A stretch of DNA of 45,295 nt from a virus, in IMG/VR virus record IMGVR_UViG_3300027754_000167, positions 1 through 45,295 of that record. One strand, written 5' to 3'. Both the position numbers and the translations under genes were made by a program. Positions 17,239 to 29,335 of the stretch are shown piece after piece. How positions within the stretch are numbered: position 1 is the first letter of the stretch; each line of letters opens with the position of its first letter. Under the pieces are notes generated by a model. The model did not search any database, was not told where the DNA came from, and saw only the letters and a program-made list of their open reading frames with translations.

Positions 17239-19758
17239 TTATCCGTTAAATGCTGCTCCAGTTGGTAAGATGTTGAAATCAATTTGAATGAATTCAGCGG
17301 TTCTTGTTGGTTGTAAGTAGATAGCACCTTTCATAATGTTTCTATCAATTACATCTGGAGTATTATTAGAATCGTCCATTACAACACGGAATGCGTACAA
17401 ACCTTGTCTTTGTTGGATTGATTCTAAATAAGGGTTAACAATATTTAAAAATCTGTTTCTTGTTTCTGCTGTGTTTTGTTCGAATACTAAGTATCTTGAA
17501 GTAGATGCGATGTATTTTCTTACAGTTAATAATAATCTTCTTACATTGATTCTATCTAATGCAGATGGTTTATCTTGTAAAGTTTTTTGACCGAATACTA
17601 CGATACCTTGTCCTGGGAATTGAACGATTGGATTTACCTTTCCTTCATATAGAGTATCTTTTTCAGACTGAGTTAATCTATTCAATACACTAACTGCTCC
17701 TACTAAACCACCTCTATTCAAACCTGCTGGTGCGAACCACTCAGCTGCTACTCTATCGTTTGCTGCGAATACGCCAGGTAATAATACTGAAGGTGGAACT
17801 GAAATTAATTTGTTTGTATTAACATCAATTGTCTTAACCCATGGGTAGTAAGTTGCTGTCATATTTGAATCTATTGCGTCTGCTTGTGTTGTAGCTTGTG
17901 AAATTGAATCATCCGCTGCATTTGTATCCATAATATAGAAACAATCATCTCTTTGTTCAACCATATCTAAAACTGAAGTTACTACTGAAGTGTGATGTCT
18001 TCTAATAACACCTGGAGTTACAACCATATTGATATCAAATTCGTCAGCGTTAGATAATGCAGATATGTGTTTACCATAAGCTACCGAACCTGAAGATAAT
18101 GAAGTTGATAAATTAAATCCTTGTGAGTTACCTGCAATTATATTTGTTCCAGTATAAATTGGAGTTGTTGGATTCATACCATCAAATCCTTCTTGGAATG
18201 CTACAACAAATTGTGCATTTGCATCACCTACTGATAATGTACCACCATTTGTTGCGTCTAAACCAAATACTGAATTAGAACCTATACCTGCTCCTGTTGG
18301 AATTGCTTTAATATAAATTGAGTTATCAGTATTACCATCTAAATCAATACCACCAACTACAGTTGCTGAAGAACTTACAAATGTTACTGCAGGAACCAAT
18401 GCTCCTACACCAGCTGATGCTGAAATAGGTAATTGATATGCTGCGTGTGCAAATGGAACTGCTTGAACTGGTGCTGATTCATTTAAGTTTTTAATTCTAA
18501 TATATTTTGAATTATTAACCCAATCTCCTGTTTCAGAAATTTTACCATCTGATGCGATTGTTCTTTTTCTATCACCAATTACTCTACTAATATAGTTTGG
18601 TGAGTTAGGGTCTAAGTTTACATTAGAATAAGTTTCTAATACATTTTTCTTTTTGTTTGTGTCAGAATATCCTCTTACAACTAATGTGAATGTACCATAA
18701 TCTGTACCATTTACACTACCTGCTGCTTTAATATTTGTAATACCAATTTTAACTTTTGTATTTGCTGTATTTCCTGCACCAATCGTTTCAATTTGGAACA
18801 GATTGTATCTATCACCGGAAATTGTTTGAGATTTGATATATGGAGTTACTGCTTCTTGTGCATCAAATGTAAATAATTGGTCACCTAATAATGTTAAAGA
18901 TTGAGTTGCAAATGCGTTTAATGATACGGAATGGTTATTAAATAAACCATATACATATGCACCCTTAGCTCCGATTGCAGATGTGCCAAATGTTGATTCG
19001 ATATCGTTTGTATCTTCAGAATCTACCGATGATGTTCCTGCAAAGTTTGTTGAACCTGTTATACTAACAATGAAATCTCCGTTAGATAATGATGTCAATA
19101 TTGAACCACTCAATCCTGTTGTTAATGTATTTTTATCACTAGGGAATAAAATACCTACTGATGCAGATGCTGCTAAATCTCCATTTATTAATATGGATAC
19201 AGATGAACTACCAGCTCCTTGTGTTGCAGATTGTGATACATATACATTGGTAGGTAATACTTTACAACCATTACCAAATTCAGTTAATGAAACGGCTGTA
19301 ACAATACCGGCTGTAATAGTCGCTGTTGCAGTTGGTTGAGTAGTATTAAATGTACTACCTTCAAATATTAAATTAGCCGTACCAGTTGTTGTATTATTTG
19401 ATGCGGTATAACCACTACCTCCTGATATTAATGATAACGATGTAATTTGTCCTTTATTTGTAGAATTTATTAGTAAAGGATTTTGTGCAGTATATCCACC
19501 GATACCTGCTACTCTACAAATAGTTGCAGTTCCAGCTTCTCTTAAATATGATTGTACTGCTAAAGGAGTATAATATGTGTCATCTACTACTCCGTATAAT
19601 GTTTCAAATTCAGCTTGTGAATTTACAATTGTTGGTACTAATGGGCCTTCTTTGAAAGGGCCTATGAATGCTGCTCCGATGTCAGCTACACCTTGTTGTA
19701 AGAATGAAAGGTCGTTTTCTTTTGTAAATACGCCTGGTGATACTATCTTTTCTGCCAT
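17239..19758 (-). CDS. 18: Tail sheath protein (gp18-like)
   Basis: The 839-residue protein has the two conserved ends of T4-type sheaths. The start reads MAEKIVSPGVFTKENDLSFLQ, with GAAFIGPFKEGPL and FETLYGVVDDTYYTPLAVQSYLREAG. The C-terminal 220 residues carry KTIDVNTNKLISVPPSVLLPGV, DRVAAEWFAPAGLNRGG, GIVVFGQKTLQ, RRLLLTVRKYIASTSRYLVFEQN and a final FIQIDFNILPTGAAFNG. It is about 180 residues longer than T4 gp18, mostly from surface insertions between about residues 90 and 560, including a GGSGYTASNN segment and several Ser/Thr/Gly-rich stretches. It forms the contractile outer sheath. The late-type motif at 19794-19802 lies upstream. Confidence 0.95.
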   Translation of the reverse strand: MAEKIVSPGVFTKENDLSFLQQGVADIGAAFIGPFKEGPLVPTIVNSQAEFETLYGVVDDTYYTPLAVQSYLREAGTATICRVAGIGGYTAQNPLLINSTNKGQITSLSLISGGSGYTASNNTTTGTANLIFEGSTFNTTQPTATATITAGIVTAVSLTEFGNGCKVLPTNVYVSQSATQGAGSSSVSILINGDLAASASVGILFPSDKNTLTTGLSGSILTSLSNGDFIVSITGSTNFAGTSSVDSEDTNDIESTFGTSAIGAKGAYVYGLFNNHSVSLNAFATQSLTLLGDQLFTFDAQEAVTPYIKSQTISGDRYNLFQIETIGAGNTANTKVKIGITNIKAAGSVNGTDYGTFTLVVRGYSDTNKKKNVLETYSNVNLDPNSPNYISRVIGDRKRTIASDGKISETGDWVNNSKYIRIKNLNESAPVQAVPFAHAAYQLPISASAGVGALVPAVTFVSSSATVVGGIDLDGNTDNSIYIKAIPTGAGIGSNSVFGLDATNGGTLSVGDANAQFVVAFQEGFDGMNPTTPIYTGTNIIAGNSQGFNLSTSLSSGSVAYGKHISALSNADEFDINMVVTPGVIRRHHTSVVTSVLDMVEQRDDCFYIMDTNAADDSISQATTQADAIDSNMTATYYPWVKTIDVNTNKLISVPPSVLLPGVFAANDRVAAEWFAPAGLNRGGLVGAVSVLNRLTQSEKDTLYEGKVNPIVQFPGQGIVVFGQKTLQDKPSALDRINVRRLLLTVRKYIASTSRYLVFEQNTAETRNRFLNIVNPYLESIQQRQGLYAFRVVMDDSNNTPDVIDRNIMKGAIYLQPTRTAEFIQIDFNILPTGAAFNG

Positions 19759-19829: not shown

Positions 19830-21557
19830 TTATTTGTATGTTGGAGAGAAATAATCGTATACTTGTCCTACTGATGCTGCTGATTGTAATGTGTTATAGA
19901 ATAATACAGGTCCAATTTGTCCGTTCCAGAATGTTGTTCTTGCACTATTACTACCAATTGTTAAATAGTTTGTTGATGCTGGTGCCGTAAATGCTGCTGC
20001 GGTAAATGTTCCTACCGATGTTTTATCTACATAAACCGTTACAGTTCCTGATGGTTGGAATGTTGCTGAAATCATATACCAAACATTTGCTGATAATGAA
20101 GTCGTTAATTGTGCACTATTTCCTAATGTACTACCATAGAATTTTACTCTATTTAAAGTAGAACTATCTGATGATTCAATTGCCAAACCATAAAATCCTG
20201 CGTAGTCAAAAATGTGTCTTGTAGTTGTACCTAATGTTGTAGTAGGTCTTACCCACATATGGATTGTACCTGAAGTAGTATTAAATTGTGAAATACCACC
20301 ATTAATATTTGTAGTAGTATCTTTATACCAGAATTGAGTTGTACCATTTGCACTCCAAGATTTTTCTTTTCTACCTACACCATTATTATAAGATGGGTTA
20401 CCACCTGTAATACTTGCTGCGTTTGTTACACCTGCAGGTCTTACACCGGTATTATATCCACTCATATCTAACCAATCTGCCGTTGCAGTACCTGCCGTAG
20501 ATGATGCCTTTGATGGGTCAACATACATTCTTAATCCTGCAGATGGAATATATGGTTGAGTTTCTGTTCCTTTGTTGTGAGATATAATACCATTTGCTAA
20601 ATATACATCGGCATTTTCAACATTGAGTGTTACAATCTCAACATCAGCAGTTACTACTTCAATATTAATTACTTCGACTTCATTTAATCCGTTGGTTTCA
20701 TCATATGTTATTACTAAATCTCCAGGTAATACATCTTCTATATTTTTAAAATGATATTTTTGAATTTCATTATCCCAAACCCAAAGAGGGTGAGTTCCAG
20801 TTGCTTTAATTAAACCATTGTTTAAATCATAATATCCACTTGCAAAGTTGAATACAACATCTGATACAATTACTTCTTGATGTGTACCTGATTGGTTTTC
20901 TAACATATAAAATCTCCAATCAACATTTTCACTATCCATATCTTGTGACTCATCTGGTAATCCTGTTGGAACCCATGCTTTAATTGAATCACCTACTGAG
21001 ATATCTTCAACATTGACAATACTACCATCTGCTTTAGTTATTTTTGTACCAAATAATAAACAGAAGTCAGGTTGGTTAATAGTATTATAAACATCTACTG
21101 CGTATAATGTTTTAGTATATGCAGTTCCGTAGTTTGTTGCGGCAGTATTATAACCATCCTGATATTTCATCGTTAAAATTGAACTAGCTTCCGAATAGTT
21201 TGCTGCTGCAACTGCTGCAGGTGTTAAAGGAACTATGGTTGGGCCTGTTCCAAATGTTCTAGTTCCTGCTGTAAAGTTTACATTATCAAATGAACAAGTA
21301 TAATTGTTTGCAACTTGTTGAACTTTGGAATAAAATAAAGAACCTGTTGAACTAAACGAAAATTGTGCATTTTCAGTTGTACTTTCTACTACATAAGTAA
21401 AAGTTGGAACTGTTACTGTAATAGAATCGGTTGCAAATCCTAATAATGAACTATTTGCAGTGTTGCCACCCAAACCACCAATTGAAACTGTTCCTGGTCT
21501 CGCTGAACCACTTACTGCTCTGTATAAATTTCCTAACGATAAATTTGTTCTTGCCAT
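19830..21557 (-). CDS. Hint-domain (bacterial intein-like) and LamG-like virion protein
   Basis: A 575-residue protein in three parts. Residues 1-165 are Ser/Thr/Gly-rich and fibre-like. Residues about 166-328 form a Hint (Hedgehog/intein) domain: C166 begins CLLFGTKITKADGS and VEDISVGDSIKAW; the block B histidine is in TGTHPLWVW (H256); VLPGDLVI follows; the end is DVYLANGIISHN with H327-N328. The residue after N328 is Lys, not the Cys/Ser/Thr needed for standard splicing, as in A-type bacterial intein-like domains. No homing endonuclease is present. Residues about 335-575 look like a LamG/concanavalin-type domain: GLRMYVDPS, TIHMWVRPTT, WYMISATFQPSGTVTVYVD, NGQIGPVLFYNTLQ. I infer a surface protein that cleaves or splices itself, perhaps releasing or cross-linking its glycan-binding part. 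Confidence 0.85.
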   Translation of the reverse strand: MARTNLSLGNLYRAVSGSARPGTVSIGGLGGNTANSSLLGFATDSITVTVPTFTYVVESTTENAQFSFSSTGSLFYSKVQQVANNYTCSFDNVNFTAGTRTFGTGPTIVPLTPAAVAAANYSEASSILTMKYQDGYNTAATNYGTAYTKTLYAVDVYNTINQPDFCLLFGTKITKADGSIVNVEDISVGDSIKAWVPTGLPDESQDMDSENVDWRFYMLENQSGTHQEVIVSDVVFNFASGYYDLNNGLIKATGTHPLWVWDNEIQKYHFKNIEDVLPGDLVITYDETNGLNEVEVINIEVVTADVEIVTLNVENADVYLANGIISHNKGTETQPYIPSAGLRMYVDPSKASSTAGTATADWLDMSGYNTGVRPAGVTNAASITGGNPSYNNGVGRKEKSWSANGTTQFWYKDTTTNINGGISQFNTTSGTIHMWVRPTTTLGTTTRHIFDYAGFYGLAIESSDSSTLNRVKFYGSTLGNSAQLTTSLSANVWYMISATFQPSGTVTVYVDKTSVGTFTAAAFTAPASTNYLTIGSNSARTTFWNGQIGPVLFYNTLQSAASVGQVYDYFSPTYK

Positions 21558-21568
21558 AGTATAAAGTG

Positions 21569-22567
21569 TTATTCTCCGTTATAAATATCTAAAAGTTTTT
21601 GTTTCCACTCATCTTTATTAGAAAAGTTTTTAATCATCCAATTTTTAAGTTTTTCAAATTCTGCTTTACGGGTTTCGTAATCATCCTGACAAATTGTTTC
21701 GTAGGTTTTTTTAAATGTTTCCTCATCAATCGCTTTGTACTTATAGTCAAGTGGAACATGCCATGTTTCATGTAATATTGGTAATTTACCCCAATCGACT
21801 GCTTCAAATATTCCATATCCAAATGGTTCATATTCAAAACAAGAATGAGATATTCCCCAATCAAGTCCATAGAACTTTTCTTTATATTTGTAATCAAACT
21901 TGTAAATTTTTGATTTCTCAAATTTGTATCCATATTTCTTTTTGTAATATTTGTTGAATGTTTCTGAATTAGTAGAAATGTATCCACCTAACCCATTCAT
22001 ATATTCAACATTCTTTCTACCTTCAACTCTTGCTGCGTATCCTAATTCTATTGAGTTTGAAAGTTCGTTGTTTTGTATAAATCTATAATTATTTGGTATA
22101 TGATGTAAGTTTTCTGTTTGATATGGAAAATGATATAATCCTACCCAAATTTTATTTTTTATTTTATTTATTAATTCTGTTTCCCATTCCCAATTTCCGT
22201 ACCAATGTAAATATTCATCTTTTCCCATTTGTGCCATTAAAGACACCTTTGTAAGATTATGAAACACAATGGAATCAATCCTTTCTAAATTGTTGTGAAC
22301 TGCAGTAGTTGGGGTGTAATGACCATGTAATATATGTATTTTTCTTGCACCTTTAAGAATTTCATCAATTTTTAACTCGTTGGTTTCCCAAATATGGTCT
22401 ATGTCAATTGGAAATTCTTCGTAATTTGTAGGTTTGTGTCTATGGAAAAGAAGAAGTGGCTTAACATTTAAGTTAGGTGCCACTTCTTTTATCCAATTAG
22501 TTACCCATATATCAGCTCCACTATTGAACCAGGGTCCTCCTGCGGTAGTGTAGTATACATCGTACAT
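21569..22567 (-). CDS. GT-B glycosyltransferase (GT4-like) within the appendage cassette
   Basis: The 332-residue protein has a GT-B look. The N-terminal half starts MYDVYYTTAGGPWFNSGADIW and includes RKIHILHGHYTPTTAVHNN. The C-terminal half opens with IELGYAARVEGRKNVEYM, the usual start of the donor-binding domain, and has the EX7E motif at E247-PFGYGIF-E255, then DWGKLPILHE. Such retaining enzymes use nucleotide sugars. Its place between S74 fibre genes and the Hint/LamG gene, 11 to 21 bases from each, suggests it decorates Ser/Thr/Asn-rich virion proteins or appendages in the infected cell. Sugar and acceptor are unknown. The last codons of this gene contain the late-type motif for the next gene. 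Confidence 0.82.
   Translation of the reverse strand: MYDVYYTTAGGPWFNSGADIWVTNWIKEVAPNLNVKPLLLFHRHKPTNYEEFPIDIDHIWETNELKIDEILKGARKIHILHGHYTPTTAVHNNLERIDSIVFHNLTKVSLMAQMGKDEYLHWYGNWEWETELINKIKNKIWVGLYHFPYQTENLHHIPNNYRFIQNNELSNSIELGYAARVEGRKNVEYMNGLGGYISTNSETFNKYYKKKYGYKFEKSKIYKFDYKYKEKFYGLDWGISHSCFEYEPFGYGIFEAVDWGKLPILHETWHVPLDYKYKAIDEETFKKTYETICQDDYETRKAEFEKLKNWMIKNFSNKDEWKQKLLDIYNGE
21580..21588 (-). promoter_or_regulatory. Late-type motif ATATTTATA inside the glycosyltransferase 3' end
   Basis: Exact copy 22 bases upstream of the Hint/LamG ATG at 21557. It overlaps codons for Asp-Ile-Tyr-Asn at the end of the glycosyltransferase, so here the motif is kept within coding sequence. Confidence 0.4.
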
Positions 22568-22588: not shown

Positions 22589-24553
22589 TTATTTAGACTT
22601 GCAATTATCGCATTTACATTCGTAATTTTCTAAATCTATTCTTAATTTTTCTATTTGTGTTTGTTGTTCTTTAATACCTTCAATTAATAATGCTACTAAT
22701 TTATCGTATTTAACTGCTTTGTATCCTGTTTCTCTTGTTGTTACTAATTGTGGTAATACTGCTTCAATTTCTTGTGCAATAACACCGACATCATTTCCTT
22801 CAAAACCATGGAACTCTTTCATGTCTGCTTTCCAATCATAAGTGTTACCACTAATCATTCTGATTTTTTCTATTGGATTTTCGATTGGAGTAATATTCTC
22901 TTTAAAGTTTATATCTGATGTAGAGTATGCTACAACATCACCACTTGCGTCAATTCTACCCGCAGTTGCTGATGCTGCCATACCAATACCCAATGAGTTA
23001 AATCTAACATCGGATGTAGTCAATAAGTTTTGGTTAATAACTGTACCATATCCAGTTGTTGAACTTAAAGTTACTTGTGCTGAACCACTTACTATTCCTG
23101 CTGGGATAGAAGAGATACTTGCGTATGTAATTTGAGATGAACCTGATACTAAGTTTGGTATTGTTATATTTGCAGAACCATCAAATGAAGTTCCGTTAAT
23201 AGTTCTTGCATTTTGTAAGGTAGTTGCAGTTGATGCATTACCTGTCAATGCTCCGGTAAATCCTGTTGAAGTTACTGAAGTTAAACCTGCTAATGAAGTA
23301 GATGTTCCACCTAATGCAGTTGATGTTGAACCGATTGTAATAGTATTTGTAGTAATTGCAGAACCAACTACTTGTGATGAACCCGAAATAACTGTATTAG
23401 AGTTTAATTGAGTTTTGATACCAGTAGACCAGTTTGTAGTTGCAGTTGCATCAATTTGTGATGAACCAGATACTATACCTGATGGGATAGATGAGATACT
23501 TGCGTAAGTTATTTGAGATGAACCACTTACTGTACCTGTTGGTAAGTTTGCAATTGTTTGTGAAGAACCTGAAACTACACCGGTTGGTAATAATGCTGGT
23601 ATTTGAGTTGAACTCGAAACTACTGAATCACCACCTACTCTTAATATTGCTAATTCACTTCCTTTAGCACCTGCTATCCATCTATCGTTTGTAGTATCCC
23701 ATAACATAGAACCTGTTGCTGTATTTCCACCTGCCGCATCTTTAACATACATACCACCATTTGTAGTAAGTGTTCCGTTTAATACTATAATATTGTCACC
23801 AATGTTTATATTTGTTGAGTCAATTGTTGTTGTTGTACCATTTACTACAAAATCACCACCTACTGTTAAACCAGTTGTTGTAGTAAGTGAACCTGTAATT
23901 GCTACATTATTTCCAAATTGAATTGCATTACCACCTGAAGATGTTATTTTATTACCATCTTGAACTTGTACCGTTCCTTTAAGTGATATAACACCCGTAG
24001 TTGGGTCTAAAACTACATCTCCACCACCTGATGATGCAAATGTAAGATTTCCGTCTGCAGTTTGTAATGTAATTGTGTCAGCAGAAGTTTCTAATAATTT
24101 TAAAGATTGTCCTGTGTCAGTTGTTAATTGTAAGTCATTTGCGGTTGACGAAAGAATTGCTGTACCATTCATATATAATGAACCGGTAGAAATATATAAG
24201 TGTCTCCATTGTTTAGAAGGAGAACCCAAATCGAATGTATTAGTTAATGAAGGAATTATAGATGAACTTAAATTTGCGGTCATTGCTACAGTATCGGATG
24301 TATTATCACCGATTGTAATGTTACCACCTAATGTTAAGTTACCATCAATTTTTGCGTTTCCTGTGATGTCTAATGAAGAACCTGAAATACCAGCGAATGT
24401 AGCTGCACTTCCTGTTCCTGATGCTCCTAGTGTAATATCACCAGTTGCTCCACCTACTTGTAATGTTCCTAAGTCTGTGTTTATGTATGGTTCTCCGAAT
24501 GCTAACGAACCGGATTTCTGTGCGGTGGTACCGCGTCTAAATTTAAGTCCCAT
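22589..24553 (-). CDS. Tail fibre-like protein with C-terminal peptidase S74 domain (654 aa)
   Basis: The start, MGLKFRRGTTAQKSGSLAFGEPYIN, resembles the RRG...GEL N-terminal module common to phage receptor-binding proteins. The middle is repeated, beta-rich and has VSGSSQITYASISSIPSG units. The C-terminal about 109 residues are an intramolecular chaperone auto-processing domain: S546-DINF-K551-ENITPIENP, the Ser-Lys dyad with spacing 5 as in the K1F endosialidase chaperone, then GNTYDW, DVGVIAQEIEAVLPQLV and a coiled coil. The last residues contain a CKCDNC cluster that could link subunits. The domain trimerises the fibre and then cuts itself off before S546. Third of three adjacent S74 genes. 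Confidence 0.88.
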   Translation of the reverse strand: MGLKFRRGTTAQKSGSLAFGEPYINTDLGTLQVGGATGDITLGASGTGSAATFAGISGSSLDITGNAKIDGNLTLGGNITIGDNTSDTVAMTANLSSSIIPSLTNTFDLGSPSKQWRHLYISTGSLYMNGTAILSSTANDLQLTTDTGQSLKLLETSADTITLQTADGNLTFASSGGGDVVLDPTTGVISLKGTVQVQDGNKITSSGGNAIQFGNNVAITGSLTTTTGLTVGGDFVVNGTTTTIDSTNINIGDNIIVLNGTLTTNGGMYVKDAAGGNTATGSMLWDTTNDRWIAGAKGSELAILRVGGDSVVSSSTQIPALLPTGVVSGSSQTIANLPTGTVSGSSQITYASISSIPSGIVSGSSQIDATATTNWSTGIKTQLNSNTVISGSSQVVGSAITTNTITIGSTSTALGGTSTSLAGLTSVTSTGFTGALTGNASTATTLQNARTINGTSFDGSANITIPNLVSGSSQITYASISSIPAGIVSGSAQVTLSSTTGYGTVINQNLLTTSDVRFNSLGIGMAASATAGRIDASGDVVAYSTSDINFKENITPIENPIEKIRMISGNTYDWKADMKEFHGFEGNDVGVIAQEIEAVLPQLVTTRETGYKAVKYDKLVALLIEGIKEQQTQIEKLRIDLENYECKCDNCKSK

Positions 24554-24612: not shown

Positions 24613-26847
24613 CTATTTGTTTTCTAATTCCTTTACTTTTGCTGATAATTCTTTTATAGATTCTATTAAAAGTGGAATTATTTTTTCATAATCAACTGCC
24701 TTATATCCATTTTCTCTATTTACAACAACTTGTGGAAGAACTTTTTCTATTTCTTGTGCTATAACTCCAACATCGTTTCCTTTGTGAGAATGTATTTCTT
24801 CGAATCCTTCTTTCCAATCATATGTGTTACCACTAATAGATTCAACTTTTGATAATGCGTTTTCTATTGGAACAATATTTTCTTTTAATCTAACATCGGA
24901 TGAATAAAATGCTGTAATATCATTAATTGCTCTAATTTCACCTGCTACTGCAGTTGCCGCAGTTCCAACTCCAATTGAATTAAATTGTACGTTTGCAGAT
25001 GTGTGAATATCTTGTGGTGTCGAAAGAGTTACGTCTGCACTTTCTAATCCTGAACCTGCTACTGTAATTTGATTTGCAGTACCTGTAATTGTTTGAATGT
25101 AATTGCCAGTAGTATGTGTTCCTAATGTTATTGCGTTTGAGGTTATTACTTGAGACGAACCCGATACAACTCCCGTTGGTAATAATGCAGGTATTTGTGC
25201 TGCTCCACTTACTATTCCAGATGGGATAGAACTAATACTTGTATATGTAATTTGTGAAGAACCCGAAACTACTCCTGTTGGTAAGTTTTCAATTATTTGT
25301 GCAGAACCTGATATAGTTCCTGCTGGTACAGATGAAGAACTTATAAATCCTAATGTAGTTATTTGTGCAGAGCCTGATATAGTTCCTGCTGGTGCAGTTC
25401 CACTTGCTACAACTGTTAAATCAAATGTTGAACCATTACCTTTAGTGAATGTTAATACATTTATATTTACACTAGCAGTTACTAATGAACTTGCAGTTAC
25501 AGATGAACTTACAAATCCAAATGTAGTTATTTGTGCAGAACCACTTAATGTACCTGTTGGTAAGTTTTCGATTGTTTGTGCAGAACTACTCACTACACCC
25601 GTTGGTAATAATGTAATTACTTGTGTCGAACCACTTACTATACCTGCTGGAATAGAACTGATGTTTGCGTATGTAATCTGTGAAGAACCGGAAACAATTC
25701 CCGTTCCACCTAATACTTGTGTAGAACCACTTACTGTACCCGTTGGTAATAATGTAATTACTTGTGTCGAACCACTTACTATACCTGCTGGAATAGAACT
25801 AATACTTGTATATGTAATTTGTGAAGAACCGGAAACAATTCCCGTTCCACCTAATACTTGTGAAGAACCACTTACTATTCCTGAAGGTATTGATGAAATA
25901 CTTGCGTATGTAATTTGTGTTGAACCACTCACTACACCATTGTTTGCATTTATTGTTCCGTTAAATGATGTTGCAGTTGAAGAACCTATTGTTGTAATTG
26001 AACCACTAATTTTGACTGAACCTGTGAAGTCATGTACATCATTACCAAAATCTCCAAATCTATTAGAACCACTACTGAATATGACAGATGCCGTTTCATT
26101 TACGGTTGTCAAATTTACTACTGTTAAATTTTCAATAGATGTGTTATTCAATTGAGAACTACCACTTATAATACCTCTACCAGTTGTTTCATATCTTATA
26201 TCATATGAAGATGTTAATTGTGATGAACCACTTACTACTCCCGTTGGTAATAATGGAGTTACTTGTACAGAACCACTAACTATACCTGCTGGAATAGAAC
26301 TAATACTTGTATATGTAATTTGTGAAGAACCACTCACTACACCCGTTGGTAATAATGGAATAACTTGTGCAGAACCACTTACTATACCTGCTGGAATAGA
26401 ACTAATACTTGTATATGTTATTTGTGACGAACCTGATACTACACCATTTGTTGCTGCTATTGCTCCTGATATAGATGTTGCATATACATTTCTATATACT
26501 TTAGATGTCGAACCTAAATCGTATGTATTAGTTGCATCAGGTATAATTGAAGAACTTAAATCTGCATTAAAAATAACACTATCATTTGTAGTATCACCAA
26601 TTGTAATCGTTCCACCTAATACTACATTGCCCGATACATATAAGTTTGAAGCAGTAATATCTCCGGATGCAGATATTCCACCTTTCAAATATAATGAACC
26701 TGTATTTAGTTCATCTAATTTTGCTAAAGTAATTTCTCTATCACCTACCGCATATTGTAATGAGTCAGGACCTTTGTTTACATATAATTCACCATCCTCT
26801 AATGATACTGAACCTGAACCTCTTCTAATTTGAAATATAGCTGCCAT
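24613..26847 (-). CDS. Tail fibre-like protein with C-terminal peptidase S74 domain (744 aa)
   Basis: The N-terminus MAAIFQIRRGSGSVSLEDGELYVNKGP is again the RRG/GEL module. Residues about 145-560 are built from many copies of GIVSGSSQITYTSISSIPAG and GSAQVIPLLPTGVVSGS units, with a nearly exact 141-base duplication in the DNA (25601-25882). A motif SGSNRFGDFGNDVHDFTGSVKISG near residue 240 recurs in the next fibre. The C-terminal 95 residues are the S74 domain: S650-DVRL-K655-ENIVPIENA, GNTYDWKEG, DVGVIAQEIEKVLPQVV and a closing coiled coil. The Ser-Lys pair predicts self-cleavage before S650. The S74 domain is closely related to that of the 654-residue protein, so the two genes are probably duplicates with diverged shafts. 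Confidence 0.88.
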   Translation of the reverse strand: MAAIFQIRRGSGSVSLEDGELYVNKGPDSLQYAVGDREITLAKLDELNTGSLYLKGGISASGDITASNLYVSGNVVLGGTITIGDTTNDSVIFNADLSSSIIPDATNTYDLGSTSKVYRNVYATSISGAIAATNGVVSGSSQITYTSISSIPAGIVSGSAQVIPLLPTGVVSGSSQITYTSISSIPAGIVSGSVQVTPLLPTGVVSGSSQLTSSYDIRYETTGRGIISGSSQLNNTSIENLTVVNLTTVNETASVIFSSGSNRFGDFGNDVHDFTGSVKISGSITTIGSSTATSFNGTINANNGVVSGSTQITYASISSIPSGIVSGSSQVLGGTGIVSGSSQITYTSISSIPAGIVSGSTQVITLLPTGTVSGSTQVLGGTGIVSGSSQITYANISSIPAGIVSGSTQVITLLPTGVVSSSAQTIENLPTGTLSGSAQITTFGFVSSSVTASSLVTASVNINVLTFTKGNGSTFDLTVVASGTAPAGTISGSAQITTLGFISSSSVPAGTISGSAQIIENLPTGVVSGSSQITYTSISSIPSGIVSGAAQIPALLPTGVVSGSSQVITSNAITLGTHTTGNYIQTITGTANQITVAGSGLESADVTLSTPQDIHTSANVQFNSIGVGTAATAVAGEIRAINDITAFYSSDVRLKENIVPIENALSKVESISGNTYDWKEGFEEIHSHKGNDVGVIAQEIEKVLPQVVVNRENGYKAVDYEKIIPLLIESIKELSAKVKELENK
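25601..25882 (-). repeat. 141-base tandem duplication inside a fibre gene
   Basis: Two adjacent copies beginning GTTGGTAATAATGTAATTAC at 25601 and 25742 share most bases over 141 positions, that is 47 codons, so the frame is kept. Each encodes a VSGSSQIT-type unit. The period and frame preservation mark it as a recent in-frame expansion. Confidence 0.75.
25991..26116 (-). repeat. Dispersed repeat shared with the neighbouring fibre gene (copy 1)
   Basis: About 125 bases nearly identical to 27996-28121 in the same orientation and reading frame; the first 35 bases are identical. It encodes the ETASVIFSSGSNRFGDFG and FTGSVKISGS segment. Such repeats allow recombination between fibre genes. Confidence 0.75.
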
Positions 26848-26896: not shown

Positions 26897-29335
26897 TTAT
26901 AGTCCGCCTGCAGTCAATCTCTCTTTCAATGTGTCGTTTTCTGCTTTTAATTCTTGGATTGCTTTAACTAAATATAAACTTAAATTGGATAAATTTGTAT
27001 CATAGTAATCAATATCATCTCTTTTAATTGTGCCCACCATATCAGGGAATACTTCCATTAATTCTTGTGCTATAAATCCTGATATTCTTCTTTCTCTTGT
27101 TGCTTCGTCAAAACCAGATAATTCATTGTAGTTATATGTTACAGGTCTAATTGCACAAATCTTATCCAATACATTAGTTACTACCAAATCAGTAATATTT
27201 TCTTTTAACCTTGAGTCTGACCAGTTTGTCCAAGCAGTATAACCATTTGCACCCGGTTGGCCATTCAGGTTTAGTTTATATCCAAAGTCAGTTGCAGTAC
27301 CAATAGAAGTATTTCCACCAGAATTTGATTGTAATCTTAATACATTTGCATCTATATTTAACATTGCAAAAGTATTAGCTGCATCATTTACTGCACTTAT
27401 ACCTGCTTGGCCACCTTCTTGTGATATTCTTATATTTTGATTAGTAGCAGTTTTAACAGTCAAATTGCCTGTTGGGTTATTTGTATTAATTCCGACTTTG
27501 CCATCCGTTGCTAAATATAATTGATAATCTGTTCCACTTGCTCTTATTTCTAAAGGATTATAAGCTGATATTGCACTATTTAATCCTACTACGGAAGCAT
27601 ATGTTGCATTATCTGTTATAAAAATACCTTTGTTATTAGTTCCGTTTACATATGCAGAACCAGATACTCCAAATTTATAGTTTGCAGATGTTGCCAATCT
27701 ATTAACACTTACATTACTACTAAATGTAGCTGGGCCAGTTACTATAAATTTATCTGAAGTTATTGTTGCAGTTGTTGTATCGTTACTTTGTCCATCAAGT
27801 ACAATAGAGGCATTACCATATGCACCATTACTTTCTAATCTTAATTGTCTTGCAGCACCATTTGATGAAATTCTTTGGAAATAAGTTCCACTAAAATATC
27901 TTTCCCAAATTGTTCTTGTATCACTCTCCCATGGCATGTTTATAAAAGAACCATTAGCAAATTCTAAACTACCACTCATTGTTTGATTACCTGTTGTTGT
28001 AATTGAACCACTAATTTTGACTGAACCTGTAAAACTATGTATATCATCACCAAAATCTCCAAACCTATTAGAACCACTACTAAATAAAACACTTGCAGTT
28101 TCATTAACTGTTGTTAAGTTTGTAATAGTTAAATTTGTAATAGTTGCGTTTTCTAATTGTGCAGAAGAACTTATAATTCCGGTTCCACCTAAAACTTGTA
28201 TTGAACCTGAAACTGTACCCGTTGGTAATAATGGAGTTACTTGTGATGAACCACTTACTATTCCTGCTGGTATAGAAGAAATACTTGCGTAAGTGATTTG
28301 AGATGAACCACTAACTATACCTCTGCCTTTTGTTTCGTAACTTCCTGTTACAGATTCTATTGTTGTTAATCTTGTGCTTTGTGCAGTATTAGTAGTATCG
28401 TTTGAACCCGTATAAGTGTTTAAAGAGTTTAATATACTAACTACTTGTGACGAACCTGATACTACTCCCGTTGGTAATGCTCCTGCAATTGAAGATGTTG
28501 CAACTGCGTATGATACTCCACTACCATTACCTACCCAAGTATATCCTTGTTGTAAAGATGATGTGAATGTTGTATTTGTATAAAAACTTTGTGAACTAAT
28601 ACTACCAACATATCTATCGTCTACTACAAAATCAATAGAACGTGATGTTGGATATATAACAGTTGTATCTCCTAAATTAGATAATCCACCAACAAAGTGA
28701 ATTGGACTTCCAACTGTTTCTACATCTCCAAAATTAAGATTATATCCTAAACTTGCACTATTGAAATCTCCAAAAGTTGGGTCATCAACATTAAAGTCAA
28801 ATGCGTTAGGGAATACATATGTTCCTTGTGCTCCACCTGCTGCAAGGTCTGTTCCATTTAAATATAATGAACCGGTTACATTAACTGAACCTGTGAATTG
28901 ATGTGTATCGTCTAATGTATTACCAAATCTAGAACTACCACTTTCGAAAAGGACAGATGAAGAAATTACTGAAATATTGAATTGTCTTGCATTAACTGCT
29001 CCTAATATAGTTAAGTCGTTTGTTACTAATGCCGACCCACTCATTATTGTTTCACCGTGATTGACAGTAAGTGTATCGTTTACTTTTAGAGAACCAAATG
29101 AAGCGGTTAGGGTTGTTCTTATTGACTCTGCTGTCAATGCTCCTGTAATAGTTATGGAGCCTGTGTTTGTTACATTTGTTGTTATTACTTCTTGGACTGT
29201 ATCTGTCGAACCTGAACGTCTAAAAAATATCTTACCATCGTAAGTATTTAATGCTAATTCTCCTAAATTAAGGGAACCCGTACCAGGTACCTTACCCGAT
29301 AACGCAGAGCGTTTGAGTTGAACAGTTTGTGCCAT
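26897..29335 (-). CDS. Tail fibre-like protein with C-terminal peptidase S74 domain (812 aa)
   Basis: The start MAQTVQLKRSALSGKVPGTGSLNLGELALNTYDGKIFF is the KRS...GELALNTYDGK module also seen in the 182-residue protein upstream. The shaft has repeated SGSSRFG..FTGSV elements (about residues 130-150 and 415-435), then GIVSGSSQITYASISSIPAG units and a more globular part (about 450-700) with ANGAARQLRLESNG-like strands. The C-terminal 107 residues are the S74 domain: S706-DSRL-K711-ENITDL, RPVTYNYNELSG, RISGFIAQELMEVFPDMV and a Leu-rich coiled coil. It is more distant from the other two S74 domains. First of the three on the transcript. Confidence 0.88.
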   Translation of the reverse strand: MAQTVQLKRSALSGKVPGTGSLNLGELALNTYDGKIFFRRSGSTDTVQEVITTNVTNTGSITITGALTAESIRTTLTASFGSLKVNDTLTVNHGETIMSGSALVTNDLTILGAVNARQFNISVISSSVLFESGSSRFGNTLDDTHQFTGSVNVTGSLYLNGTDLAAGGAQGTYVFPNAFDFNVDDPTFGDFNSASLGYNLNFGDVETVGSPIHFVGGLSNLGDTTVIYPTSRSIDFVVDDRYVGSISSQSFYTNTTFTSSLQQGYTWVGNGSGVSYAVATSSIAGALPTGVVSGSSQVVSILNSLNTYTGSNDTTNTAQSTRLTTIESVTGSYETKGRGIVSGSSQITYASISSIPAGIVSGSSQVTPLLPTGTVSGSIQVLGGTGIISSSAQLENATITNLTITNLTTVNETASVLFSSGSNRFGDFGDDIHSFTGSVKISGSITTTGNQTMSGSLEFANGSFINMPWESDTRTIWERYFSGTYFQRISSNGAARQLRLESNGAYGNASIVLDGQSNDTTTATITSDKFIVTGPATFSSNVSVNRLATSANYKFGVSGSAYVNGTNNKGIFITDNATYASVVGLNSAISAYNPLEIRASGTDYQLYLATDGKVGINTNNPTGNLTVKTATNQNIRISQEGGQAGISAVNDAANTFAMLNIDANVLRLQSNSGGNTSIGTATDFGYKLNLNGQPGANGYTAWTNWSDSRLKENITDLVVTNVLDKICAIRPVTYNYNELSGFDEATRERRISGFIAQELMEVFPDMVGTIKRDDIDYYDTNLSNLSLYLVKAIQELKAENDTLKERLTAGGL
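27996..28121 (-). repeat. Dispersed repeat shared with the neighbouring fibre gene (copy 2)
   Basis: Second copy of the element at 25991-26116, offset by 2005 bases, in the same frame of the 812-residue fibre gene. Confidence 0.75.

Follow-up and report, generated by a model that had tools for sequence, protein, structure and literature searches.

An invariant lysine after a fixed Hint domain in a phage tail-cluster protein suggests an unusual re-joining of the protein

The window, i.e. the whole stretch of 45,295 nucleotides analysed here, is a 45-kb IMG/VR virus record. It comes from an uncultured phage with a contractile tail and encodes a protein in which an intein-like Hint domain lies between an N-terminal domain (N-domain) and a LamG-containing C-terminal part (C-part), and in which the residue after the terminal Asn of the Hint domain (+1) is Lys. 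The question raised by this locus is what a Hint domain with such a junction does in a protein encoded among phage tail genes. The same Lys is invariant in hundreds of relatives, which suggests that the protein may be re-joined in an unusual way. The features of the protein are as follows:

19830-21557, minus strand: open reading frame of the Hint protein, 575 residues; the plus strand here is full of stops
21063..21557, minus strand: N-domain, residues 1-165 (MARTNLSLGNLYRA...VDVYNTINQPDF), a beta-rich region of its own in the AF2 model
20574..21062, minus strand: Hint domain, residues 166-328 (Foldseek; hhalign 99.7%; weak Pfam matches to Hint_2/Intein_splicing)
21060..21062, minus strand: C166, predicted nucleophile of the N-S acyl shift, in the context PDF/CLLFGTKI (177/177 distinct relatives)
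20790..20801, minus strand: block B, T253-G-T-H256, then P (T253 and H256 in 175/175; two fragments lack the region)
20574..20579, minus strand: H327-N328, predicted site of C-terminal cleavage by cyclisation of the Asn (H327 and N328 in 173/173)
20568..20573, minus strand: K329-G330, invariant +1/+2 junction, with K329 as candidate amine nucleophile (both in 173/173)
19833..20573, minus strand: C-part, residues 329-575, with a LamG/ConA-like domain (Laminin_G_3 and ConA-like folds)

The N-domain precedes the Hint domain in all family members complete enough for reading and has a low-confidence linker at residues 157-163 in the AF2 model; Pfam places LamG at residues 423-563 (Laminin_G_3, E 1.3e-15). 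Computed masses are 17.4 kDa for the N-domain, 18.2 kDa for the Hint domain, 26.4 kDa for the C-part, 61.9 kDa for the precursor and 43.7 kDa for a spliced product of N-domain and C-part. The complete active site named in the original prediction (C166, T253, H256 and H327-N328) is present at exactly those residue numbers, on the minus strand, no strand having been stated in the prediction. The prediction had also stated that no splicing nucleophile follows the Asn and that no endonuclease is present: the +1 residue is indeed Lys, not Cys, Ser or Thr, and Pfam gave no endonuclease match in the 163-residue Hint domain of the window protein or in its relatives.

Concerning the fold, Pfam returns only sub-threshold Hint/intein matches for the window protein, and the best E-values among relatives are 2e-5 to 3e-4 (Hint_2, Intein_splicing). 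The AF2 model of the whole protein was built from 67 family members (pLDDT 81, pTM 0.52); because of the low pTM the domain orientations in it are unreliable, and residues 330-334, with pLDDT < 50, are not placed. Among solved Hint folds, the lowest Foldseek E-value obtained with this model is that of BIL2 of Tetrahymena (6Y75, E 9e-10, target TM 0.74-0.78); further matches are the Clostridium thermocellum bacterial intein-like domain (BIL) 2LWY (target TM 0.80), Hedgehog 1AT0 (0.73) and inteins. Comparison of the family profile with other phage Hints/inteins by hhalign gave 99.7% (E 2.7e-25, 137 columns), and the controls gave 0.2% (N-domain) and 0.1% (LamG). Since these two independent tests are both strong, the assignment of residues 166-328 to a Hint domain is secure despite the weak matches in sequence libraries; a chance resemblance is ruled out by the invariance of the active-site columns in 173-177 distinct proteins. 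The domain thus combines the traits of the HINT superfamily: the Hint fold, a block A Cys, the block B TxxH and a terminal His-Asn. The profile match to Hint and intein families that had been anticipated was obtained with the family profile, Pfam alone remaining below threshold.

Relatives were collected by scanning IMG/VR with the whole protein, the Hint domain, the N-domain and the glycosyltransferase described below (best 80 of ~105 to 456 confirmed loci per scan). It is a new finding that the family is common in IMG/VR. A search with a DNA pattern made of this Hint end and HNKG returned, among the matches listed, 105 members of this family in 106 newly fetched loci. No relative was found by a whole-protein search of 50,697 phage records or by a Hint-profile search of GTDB genomes. 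Two MAG contigs, one assigned to Flavobacteriales and one to Pacearchaeota, contain the family of the neighbouring gene; both may be phage DNA that was binned with them, and the host may be a member of Bacteroidota. Four loci have an interrupted frame of the Hint protein, at or close to the Hint or LamG part, and sequencing errors are the probable cause.

The conservation counts given above refer to 177 distinct N-domain-plus-Hint proteins, taken from scans that were not selected on the C-junction; the shortfalls are fragments. Conservation by chance among close relatives is ruled out, as pairs of representatives chosen at 60% identity share a median of 36% of their residues (minimum 26%). Thirteen of ~190 columns are invariant (D155, Y157, C166, G189, W214, N246, T253, H256, E307, H327, N328, K329 and G330); D155, Y157, W214, N246 and E307 are thus invariant across the family in addition to the catalytic residues. 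Position +3 varies (T/A/S/G/Q), as does everything beyond it, and since K329 and G330 remain fixed, the Lys is selected together with the Hint domain. The codons of K329 (AAA/AAG), N328, H327 and G330 differ synonymously, so selection acts on the protein. In an independent scan anchored on the glycosyltransferase, the Hints on its downstream side have Lys-Gly in 64/64 cases. A pattern scan that allowed any codon with C, G or T as its first base at +1, with Gly imposed at +2, gave two matches, both random; +1 Asn, Thr, Ser (AGY), Arg (AGR), Ile and Met lie outside that scan and are excluded solely by the direct counts.

What follows the junction is exchangeable. After HNKG, relatives carry a LamG domain, which is ~250 or ~220 residues long, an FN3-like domain (~100 residues; in one example all seven PDB matches are FN3 or close, best E 0.025), other segments of 108-145 residues, or 20-27 residues; the shortest C-parts are 4-9 residues and a stop (KGSDSNPF*, KGTDSDPG*, KGTNSI*, KGSN*). 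Two relatives whose Hints are ~51% identical have 138 and 8 residues, respectively, after HN. Because Lys-Gly is kept before LamG, FN3-like, other and short tails alike, it belongs to the Hint domain, and the possibility that it is part of LamG was rejected. The short-tail and FN3 members also rule out LamG release as the family function; the freeing of the LamG part, proposed originally, does not stand as a general role, many relatives keeping HNKG with 4-9 residues after it.

Other Hints were found near or beside this family. The 484-kb uncultured phage LR756508 is the only phage record matching the neighbouring (glycosyltransferase) gene; a Hint protein ending in HNKH* directly adjoins that gene and has no confirmed relative in IMG/VR. 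Its +1 residue is Lys, and its block B His is replaced by Gln, so that activity may be absent from this distant relative or follow another course. The T4-like portal protein of the same phage (LR756508.1, about 145760-149920) contains three inteins, whose +1 residues are, in order, Ser, Thr and Ser; an HNH region is present in the third. In seven loci of short-tail phages, another Hint paralogue is encoded on the upstream side of the glycosyltransferase gene and ends in HNVH[GDAS]K, a fixed tail of four to five residues with Val at +1 and Lys at +4. As the portal inteins, the Hints of Erwinia phages and this upstream paralogue all differ at +1, phage Hints do not in general carry Lys there. 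Four loci on four contigs encode proteins of 740-773 residues with two or three tandem Hints; their N-part reads MKGTxFSADF...ExNTDT, two end in VHNK*, and the inner Hints have F, K, L and C at +1. ATP-grasp was considered for these proteins, and Pfam and PHROGs gave no support.

The Hint gene lies between two further genes of interest:

21569..22567, minus strand: GT-B glycosyltransferase, 332 aa, immediately upstream (AF2 pLDDT 89.7, and Foldseek)
17239..19758, minus strand: tail sheath gene, downstream (Phage_sheath in Pfam, phrog_23)

Pfam gave no match for the 332-residue protein; its model matches MshA, PimA, WaaG and T4 AGT (alpha-glucosyltransferase) in Foldseek, and the GT-B fold bears out the glycosyltransferase neighbour reported before. 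The N-domain and Hint follow the glycosyltransferase in 252/253 loci, the sole exception being LR756508, where the Hint gene is upstream; the Hint thus adjoins the glycosyltransferase in 253/253, and no Hint-less (empty-site) locus linked to a glycosyltransferase was found among them. The sheath gene is downstream in 159/159 testable window-type loci; some neighbourhood loci share contigs, hence these counts are not all independent. The identities of glycosyltransferase, N-domain and Hint change together (Spearman ~0.79). On the coding strand the order is S74-type fibre genes, glycosyltransferase, Hint gene, tail sheath, tail tube and a T4-baseplate-like gene. The fibre genes of the window (22589-24553, 24613-26847 and 26897-29335, minus strand) encode three consecutive proteins with C-terminal Peptidase_S74 self-cleaving chaperones; as they adjoin the Hint gene, several neighbouring tail proteins may self-process. 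Short-tail and FN3-type relatives have a distant match to phrog_38766 ('virion structural protein'), and from this weak match and the gene order (S74 fibres to sheath) we infer that the Hint protein may be part of the virion, perhaps an appendage as first suggested.

Judging from the sequences, self-processing of some kind is very likely. Excision of the Hint is predicted and well supported by conservation; ligation of the fragments, with Lys as nucleophile, would be a further step. In the proposed mechanism, the precursor (N-domain, Hint and C-part) would process itself. By established Hint chemistry, the acyl group of F165 would move to C166 as a thioester, aided by T253 and H256; N328 would then cyclise, aided by H327, and the N328-K329 bond would be cut. 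The amine of Lys329 would finally resolve the N-domain thioester, whereby the Hint would be removed and the N-domain joined to the C-part led by Lys-Gly (LamG in the window protein, an FN3-like domain or a 4-9-residue tail in relatives). Either amine of the Lys could attack: the alpha-amine has been proposed for BIL type A, and the epsilon-amine has been reported for BIL2 of Tetrahymena. Splicing in the absence of a +1 nucleophile is possible for type A BILs, in which Asn cyclisation frees an amine able to attack the thioester (PMC4031507); BIL2 was reported to form an isopeptide bond with a Lys epsilon-amine (PMC8616854).

An invariant +1 Lys, independent of what comes after, fits a nucleophile or a catalytic helper. 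We favour excision with ligation over the other readings, as the +1 Lys is invariant and BIL2 is reported to make a Lys isopeptide. The whole statement, that a fixed Hint excises itself and the N-domain is ligated to Lys329 through an amine, is put forward tentatively, as a reading with a substantial chance of being correct and a comparable one of being wrong. Of the roles first suggested, joining to another nucleophile comes closest; the Lys, taken at that time as a non-nucleophile, is itself invariant and is therefore the natural candidate amine. Lys-Gly could instead serve folding or fast Asn cyclisation, and by analogy the type A BILs, which mostly cleave (PMC4031507), speak against ligation. 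The loss of the block B His in LR756508 and the +1 Val of the upstream paralogue were also counted against it; because of this Val, some Hints in the neighbourhood evidently do without Lys at +1.

The next best reading is that the domain clips and releases: a type A BIL would cleave at both ends with no ligation, and Lys-Gly would speed Asn cyclisation or keep the junction accessible. Cleavage predominates in the type A BILs studied (PMC4031507; PMC7664689), and the model has low confidence at both junctions, where the linkers (157-163 and 330-334) are probably flexible. However, strict invariance of Lys-Gly is unneeded for simple cleavage, short-tail relatives would free merely 4-9 residues, and it is hard to see what purpose a LamG freed from a tail part would serve; we consider this reading possible though doubtful. 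Still less probable is dispensing in trans, by which the N-domain thioester would be passed to an amine on another molecule and cross-link or decorate the tail. The acceptor would be a hypothetical one: a neighbouring subunit, the surface of the host, or a sugar that the linked glycosyltransferase makes or attaches. In favour of this reading, the glycosyltransferase adjoins the Hint in all testable loci and some members have just a short tail after it. Hedgehog with cholesterol and BIL2 with ubiquitin-like domains are precedents; in the case of BIL2, a single ubiquitin-like domain is said to be handed to various substrates (PMC8616854). Against it, pure transfer would need neither the invariant Asn nor the Lys-Gly tail that is kept.

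An ordinary mobile intein that is decaying after loss of its endonuclease and +1 nucleophile would explain a Hint fold of mini-intein size with Cys1 and HN, but it was rejected and is very improbable: the absence of any empty-site allele in the 253 loci argues against mobility, the active site is strictly kept over deep divergence, and the C-part is exchangeable while glycosyltransferase, N-domain and Hint co-vary. A non-catalytic Hint, acting as a structural or assembly module alone, would suit LR756508, but C166, T253, H256, H327 and N328 are invariant in all other readable sequences, and this is equally improbable.

If excision with ligation is true, phages use built-in, amine-driven (not thiol- or hydroxyl-driven) protein splicing to build a tail-region protein, and there is a natural, widespread family in which lysine-mediated splicing could be examined; the literature searched describes it for a single other case, a ciliate BIL. 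It would also assign a chemical role to the genes of the glycosyltransferase and the Hint protein, which are conserved as a pair in large uncultured phages, and might offer a ligation tool tolerating any C-part that starts with Lys-Gly. The open literature searched on phage Hint structural proteins and amine-based BIL ligation holds no description of this family.

Regarding known systems, a polymorphic toxin or pretoxin HINT, with a toxin domain after the Hint, was rejected: the C-part, which is LamG, FN3-like or a short tail, has no toxin-domain match. Hedgehog autoprocessing domains carry out N-terminal transfer only, have a sterol-binding C-terminal region and lack Asn cyclisation; here the C-junction Asn is invariant, and LamG, an FN3-like domain or a short tail follows the Hint. 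BIL type B lacks the intein-like block G and HN, whereas HN is invariant in this family. Class 1 inteins, such as the three in the LR756508 portal, share the fold and blocks A, B, F and G; those three differ in their +1 Ser/Thr, their insertion in an essential protein and the HNH region of one, whereas this family has Lys in 173/173 distinct relatives, no empty allele among 253 loci and no match to a homing endonuclease. RTX self-processing (clip-and-link) modules also cleave themselves, and the end so formed is linked to a lysine (PMC7078468), but they are unrelated, Ca2+-dependent modules cutting Asp-Pro. Structural proteins of Erwinia/Dickeya jumbo phages (phage Y3 gp110, phrog_38766) share the contractile tail, the tail region and a Hint with HN near the C-terminus; they differ in +1 Thr (HNTDIVAKAEKL) and a collagen-like N-part, and a GT-B neighbour is not named in those of their annotations that were consulted. 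A Hint in a contractile-tail phage protein had been called unusual: a tail-region Hint is present here, but with one annotated in the Erwinia phages it is not unique.

The best solved Hint match is BIL2 of the Tetrahymena BUBL1 polyubiquitin locus (6Y75/6TMM), for which lysine-based ligation is reported (PMC8616854). The lysine used there belongs to ubl5, a ubiquitin-like domain next to BIL2, whereas the phage family has no ubiquitin-like domains and an invariant Lys at +1, which is compatible with an isopeptide-forming BIL of the BUBL type and is not proof of it. The family shares with BIL type A the Cys1, TxxH and C-terminal His-Asn, the lack of a +1 Cys/Ser/Thr and of an endonuclease, a non-enzyme host protein and the fold match to 2LWY; the BIL-A likeness noted originally thus agrees with the definition in PMC4031507, by which Cys1 and a terminal HN are present and a +1 nucleophile is lacking. 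It differs in the strict +1 Lys/+2 Gly over hundreds of relatives, a C-part exchangeable down to 4 residues, the tail-gene cluster and the fixed glycosyltransferase partner gene. A virus-specific Hint class, in which +1 Lys replaces Cys/Ser/Thr and the epsilon-amine of Lys329 links the N-domain by an isopeptide bond to an exchangeable C-part in tail assembly, is rather unlikely. The best reading of the sequences is that the Hint is a fixed, non-mobile part of a tail-cluster protein, probably of BIL type A.
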